Source: Oceanidesulfovibrio indonesiensis (GTDB lineage: Bacteria; Desulfobacterota; Desulfovibrionia; Desulfovibrionales; Desulfovibrionaceae). From it: a stretch of DNA of 64,000 nt. Positions 37,642 to 47,481 of this stretch are shown one piece after another (position 1 is the stretch's first letter; the number at the start of each line of letters is the position of its first letter). Location: assembly GCF_007625075.1 (NCBI RefSeq), contig NZ_QMIE01000012.1, positions 1-64,000 of the forward strand. Direction: 5' to 3'. The notes beneath the pieces were generated by a model. It searched no databases, was not told the origin of the DNA, and worked only from the letters and a program-made list of their open reading frames with translations. The position numbers and the translations under genes are program-made.

Positions 37642-37677
37642 AAAAAAAGGGGAGGCGCGCAGGGCGCCTCCCCTTTG
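37642..37677 (-). terminator. Strong intrinsic terminator after sat
   Basis: A 13-bp stem (AAAGGGGAGGCGC with GCGCCTCCCCTTT) and a 5-base loop end in seven Ts on the minus strand, 26 bases after the sat stop. It separates sat from the EPSP-synthase-like gene downstream. Confidence 0.92.
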
Positions 37678-37703
37678 TCGGGTACGATCGGTGCAGTCGG
37701 CGT

Positions 37704-38990: not shown

Positions 38991-39130
38991 GCCTTGACTC
39001 CTTTTCAAATTGATCTTTACCCAGATAAACGGTTCGGATCCCCAGCCTGTATTAAGACGCGTGCTGCACGCGCACGGATGAGGCCGGGGAAAGAGACCTC
39101 ACCAGCGTGGCTGCGTCGGAGTTCGATGGA

Positions 39131-39156
39131 TAATGAAATTTTTCACAAAATGTCAA
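39131..39156 (-). promoter_or_regulatory. Candidate sat promoter with Rex-type operator
   Basis: On the minus strand TTGACA (39151-39156) is followed at once by an 18-bp near-palindrome (39148-39131) that matches the Rex operator TTGTGAAATATTTCACAA at 15 of 18 positions. No strong -10 is evident (TATCCA at 18-bp spacing is the closest), but the box would occlude RNA polymerase. Rex control of sat has been reported in Desulfovibrio vulgaris, which supports the reading. The sat start lies about 140 bases downstream. Confidence 0.65.
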
Positions 39157-39533
39157 GCGCGATCTGGATAACCGTTTCAAGAAAAATAATGGGCAAAACG
39201 TCCAGCAAGTCTCAACCAGTCAGTTCAAAGGAGAATCTCCAAGCACTGGCGCCTGGGGTGGAGAAAAATCCCACCAAATATTATAGGGGCATTGCAACTG
39301 ACAGCAAGACAACGTAGTAAAGCTTTACCAGGGGCGACCTTCGATCGGGAAGCAATGGGGGCACGATTCGAAAGCGCCTGCTGATTCACATGTTCTCAAG
39401 TATTCTCACGCATCATTAATTATATGTAACGGGCTGTTTCAGCCAGAAATGGAATGTCGGATTTTGATCCGACCCGGAAACTTGGACCGTAGTCTGTGCC
39501 TCGGGTTCTCGGCCGTTGCCAGGTGCCGGCGCC

Positions 39534-39620
39534 GAAAGCTCCGCTGAATACGGGGCGGGCGACCTGAGCGCGATCCGCCTCGACCCGTGGCTGGAAAGCT
39601 CCGCTGAATACGGGGCGGGC
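39534..39620. repeat. 27-bp direct repeat, two exact copies with 60-bp period
   Basis: The 27 bases at 39534-39560 recur identically at 39594-39620, starting GAAAGCTCCGC and ending ACGGGGCGGGC. The 33 bases between them are not repeated. The pair lies between the sat promoter and the aprBA-side promoter. No third copy or cas gene is seen, so it is not called a CRISPR array; paired regulator sites or a local duplication are possible. Confidence 0.75.
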
Positions 39621-39639
39621 TCTGTCGTCCGTTTTTCTC

Positions 39640-39677
39640 TTGACAGTTTGCACGGGGGCTTGTTAATTATCTCACAA
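39640..39677 (+). promoter_or_regulatory. Candidate aprBA-side promoter with Rex-type operator
   Basis: TTGACA (39640-39645), a 17-base spacer and TTAATT (39663-39668) make a plausible promoter. The box TTGTTAATTATCTCACAA (39660-39677) covers the -10 and matches the Rex operator at 15 of 18 positions. It lies about 340 bases before the aprB start, implying a long leader or a separate small transcript. Confidence 0.55.
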
Positions 39678-39744
39678 ACGAATGCAGGGAACATAACAAC
39701 GCATCGTAATGATTGATTTTATTTGCACAGAAAATGGTTTTTGG

Positions 39745-39812
39745 AACCTCGTTGCGCCCATGCCCGCAGGCTGTGCTTCGCAGTTGCGGGGAATGCGCGG
39801 CGAGGTTTTTTT
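39745..39812 (+). terminator. Intrinsic-terminator-like hairpin in the aprBA leader (first)
   Basis: AACCTCG (39745-39751) pairs with CGAGGTT (39801-39807). GCGC/GCGC and CCCGCA/TGCGGG add inner pairing, and a run of seven Ts follows (39806-39812). It has the form of an intrinsic terminator about 135 bases downstream of the candidate promoter, so the RNA from about 39675 to 39812 could be an independent small RNA or an attenuated aprBA leader. Confidence 0.6.
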
Positions 39813-39822
39813 GTCAGGACCG

Positions 39823-39863
39823 ACAGCCGCCAGGCGTTTCCTGGTCAGGTGTGTTTCGGCTGT
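39823..39863 (+). other. Structured RNA element in the aprBA leader
   Basis: ACAGCCG (39823-39829) pairs with CGGCTGT (39857-39863), enclosing a CCAGG/CCTGG hairpin. It lies between the two terminator-like hairpins. It matches no riboswitch class that I can recognise. A role in switching the second hairpin is only a suggestion. Confidence 0.35.
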
Positions 39864-39897
39864 AGCGGTTTAGGATTGTTCTGCTTCTGGCAAGAGG

Positions 39898-39928
39898 GCA
39901 GGCGGGGTTCAGGCGCCGTCTGCTTTTT
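39898..39928 (+). terminator. Intrinsic-terminator-like hairpin in the aprBA leader (second)
   Basis: GCAGGCGG (39898-39905) pairs with CCGTCTGC (39916-39923) over 8 bp with one G-U pair and is followed by five Ts. It is about 90 bases before the aprB start. A short CCCC/GGGG stem follows at about 39932-39950. No good promoter lies between this hairpin and aprB. Confidence 0.5.
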
Positions 39929-40019
39929 GCTCCCCTGGTGCGCCGGGGGGATATAGGCATCGAGACTAATCGGCTGTGGTTTTCAACCTTAACAACATCA
40001 CTGATGTGGAGGATTGAGT

Positions 40020-40526
40020 ATGCCTACCTATGTTGATCCGGAAAAGTGTGATGGCTGCAAAGGCGGCGAAAAGACCGCTTGCATGTACATCTGCCCCAAC
40101 GATCTGATGATCCTCGACCCCGAGGAAATGAAGGCGTTCAACCAGGAGCCCGAGGCTTGCTGGGAATGCTACTCCTGCATCAAGATCTGCCCCCAGGGCG
40201 CCATCACCGCTCGCCCCTATGCGGACTTCGCTCCCATGGGCGGCACCTCGATTCCGCTGCGCGGTTCCGAGGACATCATGTGGACCATCAAGTTCCGCAA
40301 CGGCTCCGTAAAGCGCTTCAAGTTCCCGATCCGCACCACCGCTGAAGGCTCCATCAAGCCCTTCGACGGCAAGCCCGAAGCCGGCGATCTGGAAGACGAG
40401 CTGCTCTTCACCGAGACCGAGCTGGCCAAGCCCCAGGAAGCTCTCGGCAAGAAGTTCGATATCGAGGCTGCTGACGTCACCCAGTGCTGGCAGGATATGC
40501 CCTGCGAGGCCGGCGGTAATCGGTAG
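40020..40526 (+). CDS. aprB: Adenylylsulfate reductase beta subunit (AprB)
   Basis: 168 residues. It is the ferredoxin-like electron-transfer subunit of APS reductase. Two 4Fe-4S sites are seen: CDGCKGGEKTACMYICP, with the spacing typical of AprB, and CWECYSCIKICPQGA. The C-terminal tail wraps the alpha subunit. GGAGG before the ATG sets the start. Codon use is strongly biased, as expected for a highly expressed gene. Confidence 0.97.
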   Translation: MPTYVDPEKCDGCKGGEKTACMYICPNDLMILDPEEMKAFNQEPEACWECYSCIKICPQGAITARPYADFAPMGGTSIPLRGSEDIMWTIKFRNGSVKRFKFPIRTTAEGSIKPFDGKPEAGDLEDELLFTETELAKPQEALGKKFDIEAADVTQCWQDMPCEAGGNR

Positions 40527-40596
40527 TTCCGATTCTTGCGCTAGAATCGTGCGTAGTTCCTGAGAATTCAACGAATTCCAATCGAGGAGATACACA

Positions 40597-42591
40597 ATGC
40601 CTAGGATTCCCGTAAAGGAAGCACCTCGTGGTTTGGCTCTGGCCGAACCCGAAGTCAAAGAGCATGATGTTGACATTCTGATGGTCGGCGGCGGTATGGG
40701 TAACTGCGGTACCGCGTTCGAAGCTGTGCGCTGGGCCGACAAGTATGCCCCGGACGCCAAGATCATGCTGCTGGACAAGGCCGCCCTCGAGCGCTCCGGC
40801 GCCGTTGCGCAGGGTCTGTCCGCCATCAACACCTACCTCGGCGAAAACAATGCTGACGACTACGTCCGCATGGTCCGCACCGACCTCATGGGCCTGGTCC
40901 GCGAAGACCTGATCTTCGACCTCGGCCGCCACGTCGACGACTCCGTCCATCTCTTCGAAGAGTGGGGCCTGCCCTGCTGGATCAAGGACGAGAACGGCAA
41001 GAACCTCGACGGCGCCGCCGCCAAGGCTGCCGGCAAGAGCCTGCGCAACGGCGACAGCCCCGTCCGTTCCGGCCGCTGGCAGATGATGATCAACGGTGAG
41101 TCCTACAAGGTCATCGTTGCCGAAGCTGCCAAGAACGCCCTGGGCGAAGAGCGCATCATGGAGCGCATGTTCATCGTGAAGCTGCTCCTGGACGCCAACG
41201 AGCCCAACCGCATCGCCGGCGCCGTGGGCTTCAACCTGCGCGCCAACGAAGTGCACATCTTCCGCACCAACGCCATGGTCGTCGCCTGCGGCGGCGCCGT
41301 GAACGTGTATCGCCCCCGCTCCACCGGTGAGGGCATGGGCCGCGCCTGGTACCCCGTCTGGAACGCCGGTTCGACCTACACCATGTGTGCCCAGGTCGGC
41401 GCCGAGATGACCATGATGGAAAACCGCTTCGTCCCCGCCCGCTTCAAGGACGGTTACGGCCCGGTCGGCGCCTGGTTCCTGCTCTTCAAGGCCAAGGCCA
41501 CCAACTACAAGGGCGAAGACTACTGCGTGACCAACCGCGCCATGCTGAAGCCCTACGAGGAGCGCGGCTACGCTCGCGGTCACATCATCCCCACCTGCCT
41601 GCGCAACCACATGATGCTCCGTGAGATGCGTGAAGGTCGCGGTCCCATCTACATGGACACCAAGACCGCCCTGCAGGAGTCCTTCAAGACCATGACCCCG
41701 GCCGAGCAGAAGCACCTCGAGGCCGAGGCCTGGGAAGACTTCCTCGACATGTGCGTTGGTCAGGCCAACCTCTGGGCCGCCACCAACTGCGCCCCCGAGG
41801 AGCGCGGCTCCGAGATCATGCCCACCGAGCCCTACCTGCTCGGCTCCCACTCCGGTTGCTGCGGCATCTGGGTTTCCGGTCCGGACGAGGACTGGGTCCC
41901 CGAGGACTACAAGATCAAGGCTGACAACGGCAAGATCTACAACCGCATGACCACCGTGAACGGCCTGTGGACCTGCGCTGACGGTGTTGGCGCTTCCGGC
42001 CACAAGTTCTCCTCCGGCTCCCACGCCGAGGGCCGTATCTGCGGCAAGCAGATGGTGCGTTGGATCGTGGACCACAAGGACTTCAAGCCCACCCTCAAAG
42101 AGAGCGCGGACGAGCTCAAGAAGCTCATCTACCGTCCGTTCTACAACTACGAGGCTGGAAAGGGCGCTTCGACCGACCCGGTCGTCAACCCCGAGTACAT
42201 CTCGCCCAAGAACTTCATGATGCGTCTGGTCAAGCACACCGACGAGTACGGCGGCGGCGTTGCCACCTACTACACCACGTCGGCTGCTGCTCTGGACACC
42301 GGCTTCTGGCTGCTCGACATGCTCGAGGAAGACTCCCTGAAGCTGGCTGCCCGCGACCTGCACGAACTGCTGCGCTGCTGGGAGAACTACCACCGTCTGT
42401 GGACCGTTCGCCTCCACATGCAGCACATCCGCTTCCGTGAAGAAACCCGTTACCCGGGCTTCTACTACCGTGCGGACTTCATGGCTCTGGATGACACCAA
42501 GTGGAAGTGCTTCGTGAACTCCAAGTACGATCCCGAGAAGGGTGAGACGACGATGTTCAAGAAGCCCTACTACCAGATCATCCCTGACTAG
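40597..42591 (+). CDS. aprA: Adenylylsulfate reductase alpha subunit (AprA)
   Basis: 664 residues, the normal length. It is the FAD subunit that reduces APS to sulfite and AMP. The FAD-binding VDILMVGGGMGNCGTAFEA is near 22-40, with SGAVAQGLSAIN, the AprA-type NRFVPARFKDGYGPVGAW block and PTCLRNHMMLREMREGRG. GAGGAG precedes the ATG 70 bases after aprB. Codon use is as biased as in aprB. Two hairpins follow the stop codon. Confidence 0.98.
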   Translation: MPRIPVKEAPRGLALAEPEVKEHDVDILMVGGGMGNCGTAFEAVRWADKYAPDAKIMLLDKAALERSGAVAQGLSAINTYLGENNADDYVRMVRTDLMGLVREDLIFDLGRHVDDSVHLFEEWGLPCWIKDENGKNLDGAAAKAAGKSLRNGDSPVRSGRWQMMINGESYKVIVAEAAKNALGEERIMERMFIVKLLLDANEPNRIAGAVGFNLRANEVHIFRTNAMVVACGGAVNVYRPRSTGEGMGRAWYPVWNAGSTYTMCAQVGAEMTMMENRFVPARFKDGYGPVGAWFLLFKAKATNYKGEDYCVTNRAMLKPYEERGYARGHIIPTCLRNHMMLREMREGRGPIYMDTKTALQESFKTMTPAEQKHLEAEAWEDFLDMCVGQANLWAATNCAPEERGSEIMPTEPYLLGSHSGCCGIWVSGPDEDWVPEDYKIKADNGKIYNRMTTVNGLWTCADGVGASGHKFSSGSHAEGRICGKQMVRWIVDHKDFKPTLKESADELKKLIYRPFYNYEAGKGASTDPVVNPEYISPKNFMMRLVKHTDEYGGGVATYYTTSAAALDTGFWLLDMLEEDSLKLAARDLHELLRCWENYHRLWTVRLHMQHIRFREETRYPGFYYRADFMALDDTKWKCFVNSKYDPEKGETTMFKKPYYQIIPD

Positions 42592-42605
42592 GACGAACTG
42601 TAACG

Positions 42606-42647
42606 GCGGCTGCGGGTCTTCATGGCCCGCGGCCGCTCTTTTCCTTT
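42606..42647 (+). terminator. Intrinsic terminator after aprA
   Basis: An 11-bp GC-rich stem (GCGGCTGCGGG with CCCGCGGCCGC, one G-U pair) and a 9-base loop are followed by CTCTTTTCCTTT-type T-rich sequence. It lies 14 bases after the aprA stop. Confidence 0.75.
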
Positions 42648-42652
42648 CGCCC

Positions 42653-42713
42653 AAAATGGTCTAAGCCCAAGCCCTGACGGATATGCGTCCAAGGTCTGGG
42701 CTTAGGCCATTTT
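42653..42713. terminator. 17-bp inverted repeat between aprA and qmoA
   Basis: The arms 42653-42669 and 42697-42713 are complementary over 17 bp with one G-U pair, starting AAAATGG and ending CCATTTT, with a 27-base loop. The A-run/T-run ends give it bidirectional-terminator form. Only about 30 bases separate it from qmoA, too few for a separate promoter downstream, so qmo transcription must pass it or start within it. Confidence 0.6.
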
Positions 42714-42747
42714 CAAGACAGGCCGCGAAAAACCACGGAGGAATATG

Positions 42748-43983
42748 ATGTCCAAACCGATACTCGTGATAGGTGGCGGATTCAGCGGCATGACCGCCGC
42801 CCTTGAAGCCGCCGAAGTAGGCTATGAGGTCTACATCGTCGAGAAGACGCCCTACCTTGGAGGTCGTGTCGCGCAGCTGAATAAATACTTTCCGAAGCTT
42901 TGCCCTCCGTCCTGCGGCCTGGAGATCCAGTTCCAAAGGATTAAGAAGAACCCCAGGGTCAAGTTCTTCACTATGGCCGAGGTGACCAAGGTCACCGGCC
43001 AGGCTGGCGCTTACAACGTCTCTGTCCGCATCAAGCCGCGCCATACCCTGCGCGCCGAGGCCGATCTTTCCTTGCTCGCCGACTCGCTCGAGGGCGAAAC
43101 AACCAATGATTTCAACTTTGGTCTGGACTCCCGCAAGGGACTCTACAAAGACATGCCGTTCGCCTTCCCAGCCCGCTACGTCGTGGACAAAGACGCCTGT
43201 ACGAAAGATGATCTGAACAAGATCGCCGCCAGCCAGTTTGTCGACCTCAATGAGGAAGCAAAGAACATCGAGCTCGAGGTGGGCAGCATCGTCATCGCCA
43301 CTGGATGGAAGCCCTACGATGTGACCAAACTCACGAATCTGGGCGCGGGCCAGGTCCCCAACTGTATTTCCAACATGCAGATGGAGCGCATCGCCGCTCC
43401 CAATGGCCCCACCAAGGGCGTCATCCAGCGCCCGTCCGACGGCAAGGCTCCCAAGAAAATCTGTTTCGTGCAATGCGCCGGCTCCCGCGATCAGAACCAT
43501 CTGAACTTCTGCTCCTACATCTGCTGCATGGCCTCGCTCAAGCAGGCCCTGTATGTACGCGAGCAGTACCCGGACGCCGAGTGCACCGTATACTATATCG
43601 ACATGCGCACTCCCGAACGCTACGACAAGTTCCGCCGCCGCGCCCTTGAGGATGAGAAGATCAACCTTGTCAAGGGCAAGGTCGCCGGTGTCGAAGCCGA
43701 TCCTGCCGGCGACGTCATCGTGGAGGTCGAGGACGCCGTACGCGGCATCAAGAAGAAAGTCCGCTACGATATGGTAGTGCTCGCAACCGGCATGCAGCCG
43801 AGCCTCGCCGGCGCCAAGCTGCCCTTCGACGTCCCCGTGGACGAGGAAGGATTCATCACGGGAGGCGAGGAAAAGGGAATATTCACAGCCGGCTGCGCCA
43901 AAAAGCCCCTGGACGTGATGAAATCCGCCCAGTCCGGCACCGGCGCGGCGCTCAAGGCGATCCAAACGGTGAGAGGGAGGTAA
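42748..43983 (+). CDS. qmoA: Quinone-interacting membrane-bound oxidoreductase subunit A (QmoA)
   Basis: 411 residues. It is an HdrA-like FAD protein of the Qmo complex, which passes electrons from menaquinone towards AprBA. The FAD site VIGGGFSGMTAALEAAEVG is at the N-terminus, and the HdrA-type CAGSRDQNHLNFCSYICC is near 245. Two adjacent ATGs (42745 and 42748) are possible; the GGAGG fits the second better. It lacks the ferredoxin domains of full-length HdrA, as is usual for QmoA. Confidence 0.96.
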   Translation: MSKPILVIGGGFSGMTAALEAAEVGYEVYIVEKTPYLGGRVAQLNKYFPKLCPPSCGLEIQFQRIKKNPRVKFFTMAEVTKVTGQAGAYNVSVRIKPRHTLRAEADLSLLADSLEGETTNDFNFGLDSRKGLYKDMPFAFPARYVVDKDACTKDDLNKIAASQFVDLNEEAKNIELEVGSIVIATGWKPYDVTKLTNLGAGQVPNCISNMQMERIAAPNGPTKGVIQRPSDGKAPKKICFVQCAGSRDQNHLNFCSYICCMASLKQALYVREQYPDAECTVYYIDMRTPERYDKFRRRALEDEKINLVKGKVAGVEADPAGDVIVEVEDAVRGIKKKVRYDMVVLATGMQPSLAGAKLPFDVPVDEEGFITGGEEKGIFTAGCAKKPLDVMKSAQSGTGAALKAIQTVRGR

Positions 43984-43989
43984 CGACCC

Positions 43990-46290
43990 ATGGCCGAGAA
44001 GATAGGAGTCTATTTCGACAAGTCCTGCTTGAGCCCGGTCCTCGATACCGAGACGCTCGAGGAGCACGTGCAGACCAAATGGGGCGACCTGTGCTCCGTG
44101 GTCAAGAGCGCCACCGTGCTCGCCAGCGACGAAGGCCGCAAGATGATCCAGGCCGACATCGACGCCGGCGAAATCGACGCCGTGCTCGTGTGCGGCAGTT
44201 CGCCCCGGTACGACTGGGAGTTCTTCACTTTTGACGGCGTCCTGACGGAGCGCGTCAACCTGCGCGAGCAGTGCATCCTCTGCTACCAGGACGCTGACGG
44301 CACCCCCGTTGACCTGGACGAAGAGGCACCGGAAGAGCTCGTGGGCATCGCCAAGGACTACATCAACATGGGCATGGCCAAGCTCAAAACCGGCAAGGTT
44401 CCTCACCTGGACGTCGAGGAGCTCAACCGCACCATTCTTGTGCTGGGCGGCGGCTGGACTGGCCTGAACGCTGCGCTCAATACCGCCAAAGCCGGCTACG
44501 ACACCATTCTGGTGGAGCGTGAGGCCGAGCTCGGCGGCGCTGCCAAGAACTTCTACAAGACCGTACCGCTTGCGCATCCGTATACGGAAGCCCACGACAC
44601 GGGCCTGGACAAGCTTATTGCCGAGGTCGAAGGCAACGAGCGCATCAAGGTGATGAAGTCCAGCGAACTCACCAAGCTCAAGGGGCAACCCGGCCAGTAT
44701 ACGGCCACCATCAAAACCGGCTCCGGCGAGGAAGCCGTCTCCGTCGGTTCCGTGGTCATGGCCACTGGCTGGAAGCCGCAGAACACCAAGTACCTCAAGC
44801 CGCTGGGCTACGGCGCGATCAAGAACGTGGTCACCAGCCGCGAGTTCGAGATCATGGCCAAAGAAGGCAACATTGCCAAGCCTTCTGACGGAAGCCCGGC
44901 CAAGAAGGTCGCCTTCATCCTCGATCTGTCCGCCCTCGATCCTGGCGGCCGCATCTATAAGGACCTCGCTGAGTGCGAGCTTTCCGCCGAGGTGGAAGGC
45001 GAGGGCGATCCCCACTCCGAAGTCGAGGTCGAGGTCATCGAGCAGAAAGACTGGGAAGGCTACCAGCACCTGCCCATGACCAACTCGGTCTCTTCCGTGG
45101 TTGCGCTGAAGCAGGCCAACTACGTGTTGGAAAAGTCCGACGATTCCATCGCCTATGTCTTCTACGACTCCATGGTCGTCCAGGGCGTGTACGAGAAGTA
45201 CTACAAGTCCGCGCAGGACAAGCCCGGCATGATGCTCTCCAAGGGCCGCGTCACTGCGGTGGAGGAAGCCGACGGCGGCCTGGTCGTGAAGGTCTCCGAC
45301 TCGCTCTTCGGCGGCGATATCGAAGTCGCAGTGGACATGGTGGTCCTGCCAACCGGCATCGTGCCCACGTCCGCCAAGGAAGCCGTTGTGCACTTCGACT
45401 ATCGACAGGGTCCGGCCTTCCCGGATCTGGCGCTGTTCGAGGGCTTTACGGATTCGAACTACATCTGCTTCCCCTATGAGACCCGCCGGACCGGCGTGTA
45501 CGCCGCAGGCGCCGTGCGCCAGCCCATGCTCATGGATTACGCCACCGAGGACGCCGCCGGCGCGGCGCTCAAGGCAATCCAGTGTCTGGAGTCTGTCAAT
45601 CGCGGTGTTTCCGTCCACCCGCGTTCGGGCGACCCCTCCTACCCGGTGTTCAACTTCGTGCGCTGCACCCAGTGCAAGCGCTGCACCGAAGAATGTCCTT
45701 TCGGCGCCCTGGACGATGACGAGAAGGGCACGCCGCTGCCCAACTTTAACCGCTGCCGCCGCTGCGGCACCTGCATGGGCGCGTGCCCTGAGCGCGTGAT
45801 CTCCTTCGACAACTACGGCATCGGCATGATGAGCGATGTTGTCCGCCAGTACAACGTGCCGGACGACATCAACGAAGGCGGACCGCGCATCCTGATCATG
45901 GCCTGTGAGAACGACGCCTACCCGGCGCTCGACATGGCAGCCATTCGCGGCAAGCACTGGAGCCCCTTCGTGCGGATCATGCCCGTGCGCTGCCTGGGTT
46001 CGGTCAACGCCATCTGGATCAAGGACGCCATGAGCCGCGGCACGGACGGCGTCATGCTGCTGGGCTGCAAGTACGGCGACGACTACCAGTGCCACTTCGT
46101 GAAGGGGTCTGAGATCTGCAACCGCCGCAAGGAGAACATCGCCGAGACGCTGAACCAGCTCGGTATCGAACCCGAGCGCGTGGAGCAGTACGAAGTCGCC
46201 ATCGACGAGTACGACAAGGTGCCTGAGCTGATCGACCAGTTCATCAAGGACGTCCTCAGGATGGGCCCCAACCCGTTCAAGGGATACTAG
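43990..46290 (+). CDS. qmoB: Quinone-interacting membrane-bound oxidoreductase subunit B (QmoB)
   Basis: 766 residues. It is HdrA-like with an extra domain. The N-terminal region precedes an FAD site VLGGGWTGLNAALNTAKAG (about 155-175). Two 4Fe-4S motifs follow, CTQCKRCTEECP and CRRCGTCMGACP, near 560-600. The C-terminal part (about 635-766, ILIMACENDAYPALDM to the end) is an MvhD/FlpD-type domain with CLGSVNAIWI and LLGCKYGDDYQCHF. It starts 6 bases after qmoA and is followed by qmoC 12 bases later. Confidence 0.96.
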   Translation: MAEKIGVYFDKSCLSPVLDTETLEEHVQTKWGDLCSVVKSATVLASDEGRKMIQADIDAGEIDAVLVCGSSPRYDWEFFTFDGVLTERVNLREQCILCYQDADGTPVDLDEEAPEELVGIAKDYINMGMAKLKTGKVPHLDVEELNRTILVLGGGWTGLNAALNTAKAGYDTILVEREAELGGAAKNFYKTVPLAHPYTEAHDTGLDKLIAEVEGNERIKVMKSSELTKLKGQPGQYTATIKTGSGEEAVSVGSVVMATGWKPQNTKYLKPLGYGAIKNVVTSREFEIMAKEGNIAKPSDGSPAKKVAFILDLSALDPGGRIYKDLAECELSAEVEGEGDPHSEVEVEVIEQKDWEGYQHLPMTNSVSSVVALKQANYVLEKSDDSIAYVFYDSMVVQGVYEKYYKSAQDKPGMMLSKGRVTAVEEADGGLVVKVSDSLFGGDIEVAVDMVVLPTGIVPTSAKEAVVHFDYRQGPAFPDLALFEGFTDSNYICFPYETRRTGVYAAGAVRQPMLMDYATEDAAGAALKAIQCLESVNRGVSVHPRSGDPSYPVFNFVRCTQCKRCTEECPFGALDDDEKGTPLPNFNRCRRCGTCMGACPERVISFDNYGIGMMSDVVRQYNVPDDINEGGPRILIMACENDAYPALDMAAIRGKHWSPFVRIMPVRCLGSVNAIWIKDAMSRGTDGVMLLGCKYGDDYQCHFVKGSEICNRRKENIAETLNQLGIEPERVEQYEVAIDEYDKVPELIDQFIKDVLRMGPNPFKGY

Positions 46291-46302
46291 GAGGTCATTC
46301 GA

Positions 46303-47481
46303 ATGCAGCGACTCAATCCCGACCCGCAATTTGTACGGGAGCTGCAGGGCGTGGGCGGCGATGCCCTCACCAAGTGCTATCAGTGCGCGACCTGCAGCGT
46401 GGCGTGTCCCATATCGCCCTCCAGTCAGCCGTATCCCCGCAAGGAGATGATCTGGGCGCAATGGGGACTCAAGGACAAACTCATGACGGACATCGACGTC
46501 TGGCTGTGCCACAACTGCGGCACGTGCTCGGACCTATGTCCCCGCGGGGCCAAGCCCGGCGATCTGCTGGCGGCCATCCGCAACATGACATACCGCTCCA
46601 TTGCCGGCCCCGCCGTGATGGGCAAGTGGATGAGCTCCGTCAAACATCTGCCCGTGCTGGCCGGCATTCCGGCAGTCATCTATCTGGTGATCTGGATCAT
46701 CATGGCGGCGATCCGCGGCACCGCGTTCCCTCTCACCGAAGACGGCCATGTGGTGTACGGTCTGCTCTTCCCGGGCGACTACACCATCGATCCCATCTTC
46801 GGTCTGGCCGCACTCTACGTGATCTACACCTTCTACGTCGGCGTGAAGAATCTGCTCAAGCGTTTCGAACCGGAAGGCGAGGTGATCTTTGTGGGCGGCA
46901 AGAAGCCGAGCATGCTGCGCGCCCTGTGGGACACCATTATCGGCGAGATCGTTACGCACAAGAAGTTCGCCGACTGCGGCGAGGACAAGGCGCCCCGCAA
47001 GATTGGGCATCTGGCCATCTTCTACGCCTTCATCGCCTTGTTCATCGTGACCAGCATCGTGGCCGTGGGCCACTGGGGGCCGGTGTTCCTGGGCTGGGTC
47101 GGTGTGGATGTCCACCAGCTTCACACGCCGATTCCGCTGACATCGCCCATCAAACTGCTGGCGAACCTGGGCGCCGTCCTGGGCATCGTCGGACTGGTCC
47201 TCCTGACCGCGAAGCGCGTGGCCAAAGATCCCAAGAAGTCCGAGAACAGCTACTACGACTGGTATCTGCTCGGCGTCATCTGGGCTATCTTCCTCACCGG
47301 CATCGGCAGCCAGCTTCTGCGGTTGGCGAATGTCAAATACCTGGCCTACCCCACCTACTATCTCCACCTGGTGGCGGTATTCATGCTACTCGCCTACCTG
47401 CCTTGGACCAAGCTCGGCCACTTCGTCTACCGGACAGCCGCGCTGGCGTATGCACGTCGCATAGGCCGCAAGGTCATGTAG
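46303..47481 (+). CDS. qmoC: Quinone-interacting membrane-bound oxidoreductase subunit C (QmoC)
   Basis: 392 residues. It combines an HdrC-like N-terminal part with two 4Fe-4S motifs (CYQCATCSVACP and CHNCGTCSDLCP) and a membrane part with about six segments, resembling NarI/DsrM-type cytochrome b. It anchors the complex and exchanges electrons with the quinone pool. AGGAGG precedes the ATG. Confidence 0.96.
   Translation: MQRLNPDPQFVRELQGVGGDALTKCYQCATCSVACPISPSSQPYPRKEMIWAQWGLKDKLMTDIDVWLCHNCGTCSDLCPRGAKPGDLLAAIRNMTYRSIAGPAVMGKWMSSVKHLPVLAGIPAVIYLVIWIIMAAIRGTAFPLTEDGHVVYGLLFPGDYTIDPIFGLAALYVIYTFYVGVKNLLKRFEPEGEVIFVGGKKPSMLRALWDTIIGEIVTHKKFADCGEDKAPRKIGHLAIFYAFIALFIVTSIVAVGHWGPVFLGWVGVDVHQLHTPIPLTSPIKLLANLGAVLGIVGLVLLTAKRVAKDPKKSENSYYDWYLLGVIWAIFLTGIGSQLLRLANVKYLAYPTYYLHLVAVFMLLAYLPWTKLGHFVYRTAALAYARRIGRKVM

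Follow-up and report, generated by a model that had tools for sequence, protein, structure and literature searches.

APS reductase is a central and abundant enzyme of dissimilatory sulfate reduction, and the aprBA operon that encodes it is expected to be highly expressed. In the window (the whole 64-kb stretch of DNA analysed here), aprBA is nevertheless preceded by a long leader with two hairpins of terminator form. We asked whether this is an attenuated leader or the source of a new small RNA, and how far the hairpins are shared by relatives.

The aprBA locus

We take the + strand open reading frame (ORF) at 40020-40526 to be aprB, the gene for the APS reductase beta subunit and the first of the operon. 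The 664-aa ORF at 40597-42591 (+), which stands behind aprB, we take to be aprA, the gene for the alpha subunit. Downstream of aprBA on the same strand are three ORFs (42745-43983, 43990-46290 and 46303-47481, together spanning 42745-47481) that are presumably qmoA, qmoB and qmoC. Across the family, aprB was matched at E ≤ 1e-60 in 217 of 288 genomes. In a set of 79 relatives, some match at E ≤ 0.001 was present in 77, a count that includes weak, ferredoxin-like matches.

Two very stable hairpins lie between aprA and the putative qmoA. One, at 42605-42637 (z -4.9), is followed by TCTTTTCC; the other, at 42653-42713 (z -5.8), is set between AAAATGG and CCATTTT. It may be that aprBA and qmoABC are not covered by a single uniform transcript.

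The sat gene is on the minus strand, divergent from aprBA, an arrangement on which an earlier, sequence-only reading of this DNA was silent. The sat promoter has a palindrome, TTGTGAAAAATTTCATTA (39131-39148, minus strand), with TTGACA beside it at 39156-39151 on the same strand. This palindrome has two mismatches and is weaker than that of aprBA (below); at two mismatches, 3.2 matches are expected by chance in the window. Directly behind the 3′ end of sat is a hairpin that is terminator-like on both strands (37643-37678; CAAAGG..CCTTTTTT) and that gives a weak match, of 13.5 bits, to the P1 profile described later.

The aprBA promoter is closely preceded by a pair of identical 26-base direct repeats, GAAAGCTCCGCTGAATACGGGGCGGG, at 39534-39559 and 39594-39619, 60 bases apart. 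A search with the first 23 bases (≤2 mismatches) found no further copy in the genome, and the repeat is absent from L002, the other genome of the genus, and from the other aprB upstream regions (≤5 mismatches). The repeats are possibly regulator sites or a recent duplication.

A promoter with a predicted Rex/HcpR-type operator

The sequence-only reading placed a promoter, TTGACA-17-TTAATT, ahead of aprB. The sequence is as it claimed, and recurrence in relatives backs the assignment. The promoter (39640-39668, +; -35 TTGACA at 39640-39645) scores 10/12 against the consensus. Its -10 can be read as GTTAAT at 39662-39667 (spacer 16) or as TTAATT at 39663-39668 (spacer 17). It is ~355-380 bases ahead of the aprB ATG (40020), and the transcript would start at ~39670-39680, probably near 39675. 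A simple promoter scan does not list it, since the scan accepts only second hexamers whose second base is A.

A palindrome that had gone unnoticed, TTGTTAATTATCTCACAA (TTGTTA-N6-TCACAA; 39660-39677), covers the -10 and is a candidate operator of the Rex or HcpR (CRP-like) type. It is the sole exact TTGTKA-N6-TCACAA in the 64-kb window. We gathered 206 aprB loci, for one part of which the best 80 of 571 relatives were taken, and 182 upstream regions were left once identical 150-base ends had been removed. In these 182 the palindrome was exact in 34 and had at most one mismatch in 81; by a loose criterion of at most three mismatches, it was present in 154. TTGAC was found at the -35 place of all 34 exact palindromes and of 74 of the 81 with at most one mismatch, and in those 74 upstream regions the palindrome starts 79-360 bases ahead of the ATG.

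Many relatives have a further conserved box, TTGTTCAAAAATTCACTT, directly ahead of the TTGACA of the aprB promoter (L024, L037, L038, L048, L061, L143, L149, L151, L153, L154, L155, L164, L177, L188, L191, L196 and L203-L205), and a similar box, TTGTTAAAAAATTCACTT, occurs in L074, L084, L141, L193 and L202. The window has no box at that place. These boxes may represent a tandem or displaced regulator site.

PF06971, which we take to be the marker domain of Rex, was above the cut-off once in the window's genome and was found in 28 of the 29 genomes searched, the window's included; it also matches in 7/14 control genomes. Either Rex or HcpR would fit as the binder of 39660-39677. Comparable apsAB sites have been published, namely TTGTtAAtTccaTCACAA at -168 in D. 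vulgaris and TTGTtAAATATcTCACAA at -186 in D. desulfuricans G20; the passages on apsAB describe them as overlapping the -10 and assign them to the CRP-like HcpR (PMC545781, Rodionov et al. 2004). The aprBA promoter is therefore of an already known kind. As to Rex, one report states that its binding sites are the same as those of HcpR1 (PMC5701242), and a passage in another links it to sat in D. vulgaris (PMC11451228, citing Christensen et al.).

Hairpins in the leader

The leader is present as a single copy in the genome. Taken as a whole (39675-40019), it folds better than any of 100 shuffles (z -3.4), and the region 39000-41000 contains 6 terminator-like matches, on both strands and some of them overlapping, against 2.3 ± 1.3 in shuffles. 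Behind the start of the untranslated leader (39678-39742, +) comes a long hairpin of terminator form, H1 (39743-39812, +; outer stem 39744-39757/39795-39808). Its fold has an energy of -43.0 kcal/mol and a z of -5.9, with 0/200 shuffles as stable, and its tail is a run of seven T at 39806-39812; the first hairpin with seven Ts that had been proposed is real. So is the last, with five Ts, which we call P1 (39892-39929, +; stem 39893-39905/39916-39928, tail CTGCTTTTTG; -22.3 kcal/mol, z -4.35, 0/200 shuffles as stable) and predict to be a conserved leader terminator. Both H1 and P1 have a stable GC-rich hairpin followed directly by a T tract, as intrinsic terminators do.

The paired ACAGCCG/CGGCTGT element put between them did not survive. 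At 39820-39866 the fold is at chance level (z -1.37; equalled by 22/200 shuffles), the surrounding 39813-39891 is 39% identical between the two genomes of the genus, and we rejected the element as a conserved structure. Right behind P1, the earlier reading had overlooked a short hairpin, P2 (39930-39953, +; stem 39931-39938/39943-39950; -14.2 kcal/mol). Over 39931-39950 it has a z of -2.2, with 5/200 shuffles as stable, and between the two genus members one of its pairs changes from C-G to U-A, one from U-G to U-A and one from U-G to C-G. At the P2 place in other genera, a hairpin above nearly all shuffles is found in some, not all. The 3′ part of the leader (39954-40019, +), with the Shine-Dalgarno sequence TGGAGGA, has no unusual fold (z -0.36).

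Identity between the two genus members varies along the leader. It is 92% in the promoter, 60% in 39678-39742, 61% in H1 and 39% in 39813-39891, then 74% in P1, 71% in P2 and 94% over the final 66 bases. With regard to a leader-peptide attenuator, a frame of 77 aa with a TTG start lies inside the leader at 39723-39956 (frames of at least 60 aa, judged by eye). The window gave no Rfam 15 match at the gathering score, and 39000-40050 none to E 5; the statement that no known riboswitch class is present holds as far as Rfam goes.

H1 with its T run, together with compatible stem changes, was found in 2/2 genomes of the genus (the window and L002), the only two members among the 288 family genomes. 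When other long leaders were aligned (L003, L112, L009 and L011), no T-tailed hairpin was found at the H1 place; in L003 a weaker such hairpin lies closer to aprB, at -192 to -161. H1 thus looks like a genus-level property with a strong terminator shape. The suggestion that the first hairpin ends a separate RNA of ~135 bases gains from these comparisons within the genus only (2/2 genomes).

P1 is shared within one clade of the family

When 28 leaders of 175 bases each were aligned with MAFFT, RNAalifold found no common structure (energy 0.0), and P1 was therefore aligned alone. P1 was detected by short sequence anchors at both arms, a procedure that biases the outer pairs and leaves the inner-stem test unaffected. 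It was present in 31/182 aprB upstream regions (30 by the anchors, plus L022 by hand), as 26 distinct sequences from 14 genus codes, at positions -152 to -50 from the ATG. It was not found in the other 151/182, which include Pseudodesulfovibrio, Solidesulfovibrio and most gut Desulfovibrio of the set, and for this reason we regard P1 as dispensable.

Over the 26 distinct copies, the inner stem sums to -222 kcal/mol against -129 ± 11 in shuffles (0/200), although in the single copies L010, L016, L052 and L160 it is no better than shuffles. In an alignment of 25/26 distinct copies (L052 left out), stem cells were paired in 94.6% of cases, against 88.9% with shuffled partners (0/500) and at most 70.4% when the arms were slid. 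The covariation score was 0.329 against 0.243 shuffled (0/500), and four pairs were changed on both sides, a number equalled in 122/500 shuffles. The comparison with relatives that the sequence-only reading had called for therefore does find covariation in the P1 stem.

Of the 26 copies, 21 have five or more T among the seven bases of the sense T tract, and 9 have five or more A among the seven of the 5′ A tract; the sense direction is therefore the one kept in P1. The flanking tracts of P1 in the window have 3 A and 5 T. Five Halodesulfovibrio-type copies retain the stem but have a T tract reduced to TTTAT, which makes a poor terminator.

We placed the P1 carriers on a quick tree of AprB+AprA, built from the 117 loci with enough sequence, 24/31 P1 carriers among them. 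All 24 P1 rows fell in one 58-row clade with an SH-aLRT of 97, and the P1 state changes 5 times on the tree against 22 when shuffled (0/500). The tree includes one very long, unsure row (L050), and such change counts do not separate gain from loss. P1 is thus kept in the leader by descent within one supported clade. As the early branches drawn within the 58-row clade have P1, the simplest story is that P1 was gained once and subsequently lost in places, chiefly among gut Desulfovibrio.

Pairing between P1 and the upstream leader

To look for an RNA switch, we compared the pairing of the upstream leader with the P1 5′ arm, as it would be before the 3′ arm is made, in 21/31 P1 leaders. In total it came to -106 kcal/mol, weaker than the -126 ± 11 obtained when the upstream parts were shuffled in two-base steps. 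Two leaders, L026 and L022, showed above-chance upstream pairing, unlike the total over the 21. In the window, the core of the P1 5′ arm pairs upstream with a probability of 0.90 before the 3′ arm is made, and at that stage 39879-39888 could pair locally with 39893-39902; by eye, L002 is without this pairing. When the 3′ arm is complete, the equilibrium favours P1, with a mean pairing probability of 0.93 in the window and 0.96 in L002.

We see no sign of a shared antiterminator, and P1 looks insulated, like a plain terminator. Of the leader proposed by the sequence-only reading, the part with terminator-form hairpins between promoter and aprB is strengthened by the comparison, whilst antitermination by leader structure is weakened; having pairing weaker than shuffles over 21 leaders, it was dropped as an explanation.

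By eye, an outer stem of ten pairs, TTCGGTGGAG/CTCCATCGAA, encloses P1 in L160 and L172, and is more degenerate in L058, L066, L179, L016 and L035. Its 3′ strand can pair downstream instead, forming P2, and in these leaders, of Halodesulfovibrio type or from Nitratidesulfovibrio, the outer stem and P2 may be mutually exclusive.

We also looked for a second promoter, downstream of P1 and ahead of aprB, in 26 P1 leaders. The best scores there averaged 7.58/12 against 7.57 in shuffled sequence, and this candidate was rejected as being at chance level; the upstream promoter in the same leaders has a mean score of 9.2.

P1-like hairpins elsewhere and other long leaders

In the window's own genome the P1 profile gave three matches, with the aprB-leader site best at 34.1 bits. 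The second-best (L208, 23.4 bits) is inside a ferredoxin-like ORF, was judged by eye to be coding and was set aside. In the family, the profile matched at E ≤ 0.01 in 116/288 genomes, also far from aprB, and the matches away from aprB are often on both strands at one place. We inspected 24 of the ~30 best non-apr places, leaving out those of G176, G166, G240, G236 and G003:C7. Nineteen of the 24 lay no more than 60 bases from the 3′ end of an ORF of at least 100 codons, whichever the strand, against 5.6% (269/4800) of random positions in the same loci; the gene ends are those of mechanical ORFs, and coding sequence dominates the random control (81% of it within ORFs). One of the 19 and three of the other five were ORF-internal. 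In sequence and shape, P1 resembles the gene-end intrinsic terminators of the family.

Terminator-like hairpins are also concentrated in long aprB leaders generally. In 138 leaders (the 139 with a recognised promoter minus one of >400 bases), a hairpin of -14 kcal/mol or better was found in 16/32 leaders of at least 200 bases, where 1.9 were expected, compared with 1/25 of those of 130-199 bases (0.6 expected) and 3/81 of the shorter ones (1.7 expected). By eye, T-tailed hairpins are also present in the long leaders L162, L190, L194 and L201. Their sequences (GGCCGGGC..TCTTTTT and similar) are unrelated, and they may be leader terminators that arose independently.

How the leader may act

The reading that we favour, at a little better than even confidence, is that a Rex/HcpR-type promoter is followed by insulated partial terminators, the products being leader RNAs and a read-through aprBA mRNA. 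aprBA would be transcribed from the one promoter, ~345 bases upstream, with initiation under a Rex/HcpR-type repressor site over the -10. The polymerase would then meet the P1 terminator and, in this genus, the earlier H1, both of which would form independently, with no shared antiterminator in competition. Because they are self-folding in this way, P1 and H1 are most likely fixed partial stops; leader RNAs of ~135 and ~255 bases would be released, and a fraction of the polymerases would reach aprBA. Termination in the cell and the size of the read-through fraction are here predictions from sequence. The weightiest objection is the high expression expected of the operon, an odd match for two strong terminators one behind the other.

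The stops could instead be regulated, which we consider possible, if on the doubtful side. A protein, ribosome occupancy or a ligand would then alter read-through at P1 (and H1), and aprBA output would track the sulfate, redox or energy state of the cell as a second layer over the promoter repressor. The retention of P1 by descent argues for this, given that an unregulated P1 could only lower expression, as do the presence of P2 behind P1 in several genera and the conservation of the last 66 leader bases (94% in the genus). However, there is no shared alternative pairing and no Rfam class, and much of the leader is unconserved even in the genus, down to the 39% of 39813-39891. Were the stops regulated, this would have to be through a factor that works on the polymerase and not through a shared RNA switch.

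The main alternative to the fixed partial stops is a stabilising or processing role, in which P1 and H1 would stabilise an abundant mRNA at its 5′ end, or serve its processing there, and would not be used as terminators; we judge this unlikely. The high expression expected of aprBA would be accommodated, and the Halodesulfovibrio-type copies, in which the stem was kept as the T tract decayed, favour it. Yet a stabiliser would need neither the T tract of most P1 copies (≥5/7 in 21/26) nor the likeness of P1 to gene-end terminators.

Less likely still is a separate small RNA transcribed from the Rex/HcpR-type promoter to H1 (~135 bases) or to P1 (~255), with the aprBA mRNA as a read-through product or from another start. 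H1 and P1 have the full form of terminators and the unit from the promoter to H1 is the size of a small RNA, but the body of the leader is poorly conserved (60% in 39678-39742), H1 with its T run occurs in one genus only, the genome has a single copy, and no promoter signal is found behind P1. It is very improbable that P1 is a two-way terminator shielding the promoter from antisense transcription, with its effect in the sense direction a by-product: many P1-profile matches elsewhere score on both strands at one place and the A tract is strong in some copies (9/26 with at least 5 A of 7), but in most, the window's included (3 A against 5 T), it is weaker than the T tract.

Elements of these readings can be joined, and we offer the result tentatively, as something that is probably not the case in full: a clade-inherited leader terminator would meter aprBA via a trans-acting antitermination factor, and in the window's genus H1 would also release an abundant, redox-controlled small RNA. 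If this were true, sulfate reduction in one large clade of Desulfovibrionaceae would be controlled after initiation and without an RNA switch.

Comparison with known systems

The conserved leader terminator suggests that the pathway may also be controlled after transcription has begun, and its inheritance in the aprBA leader means that a second layer of control can be tested directly. P1 is also present in Nitratidesulfovibrio (L035, N. oxamicus), to which D. vulgaris Hildenborough is close, and the second layer can be tested there too. In the published passages on these genes, control of aprBA is described at the promoter only, by HcpR/Rex-type sites. Leader terminators as such are already known; we found no description of one for aprBA, and no clade-inherited instance there, in the open-licence literature searched. 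The main text of a 2024 survey of non-coding RNA in O. alaskensis G20 has no words beginning with apr or APS. P1 may already be visible in published transcript maps.

The closest comparison is with apsAB of D. vulgaris and G20, where the same gene has the same kind of palindrome over the -10; the leader here is about twice as long, and the passages on apsAB mention no terminator hairpin in its leader (PMC545781). The Rex regulon of Desulfovibrio shares the palindrome type, and PF06971 is encoded in the window's genome, although the relevant passage of the Rex regulon report concerns sat, not apr (PMC11451228). Terminators in series have a parallel in the tandem THI elements ahead of thiSGHFE in Desulfovibrio, which are described as riboswitch terminators and are likewise two in a leader (PMC545781). 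Unlike those riboswitches, the aprBA leader is without an Rfam match or a shared competing antiterminator.

In its make-up, P1 is the same as the intrinsic terminators of Desulfovibrionaceae (A-rich stretch, GCRGG stem, CCTGC, T tract), and it differs from ordinary ones in standing between a promoter and the promoter's own gene. In this respect it is like the leader attenuator of E. coli ampC, a fixed terminator that works without a leader peptide and passes part of the polymerases; the same combination, a fixed leader terminator with partial passage, is what we propose for P1.
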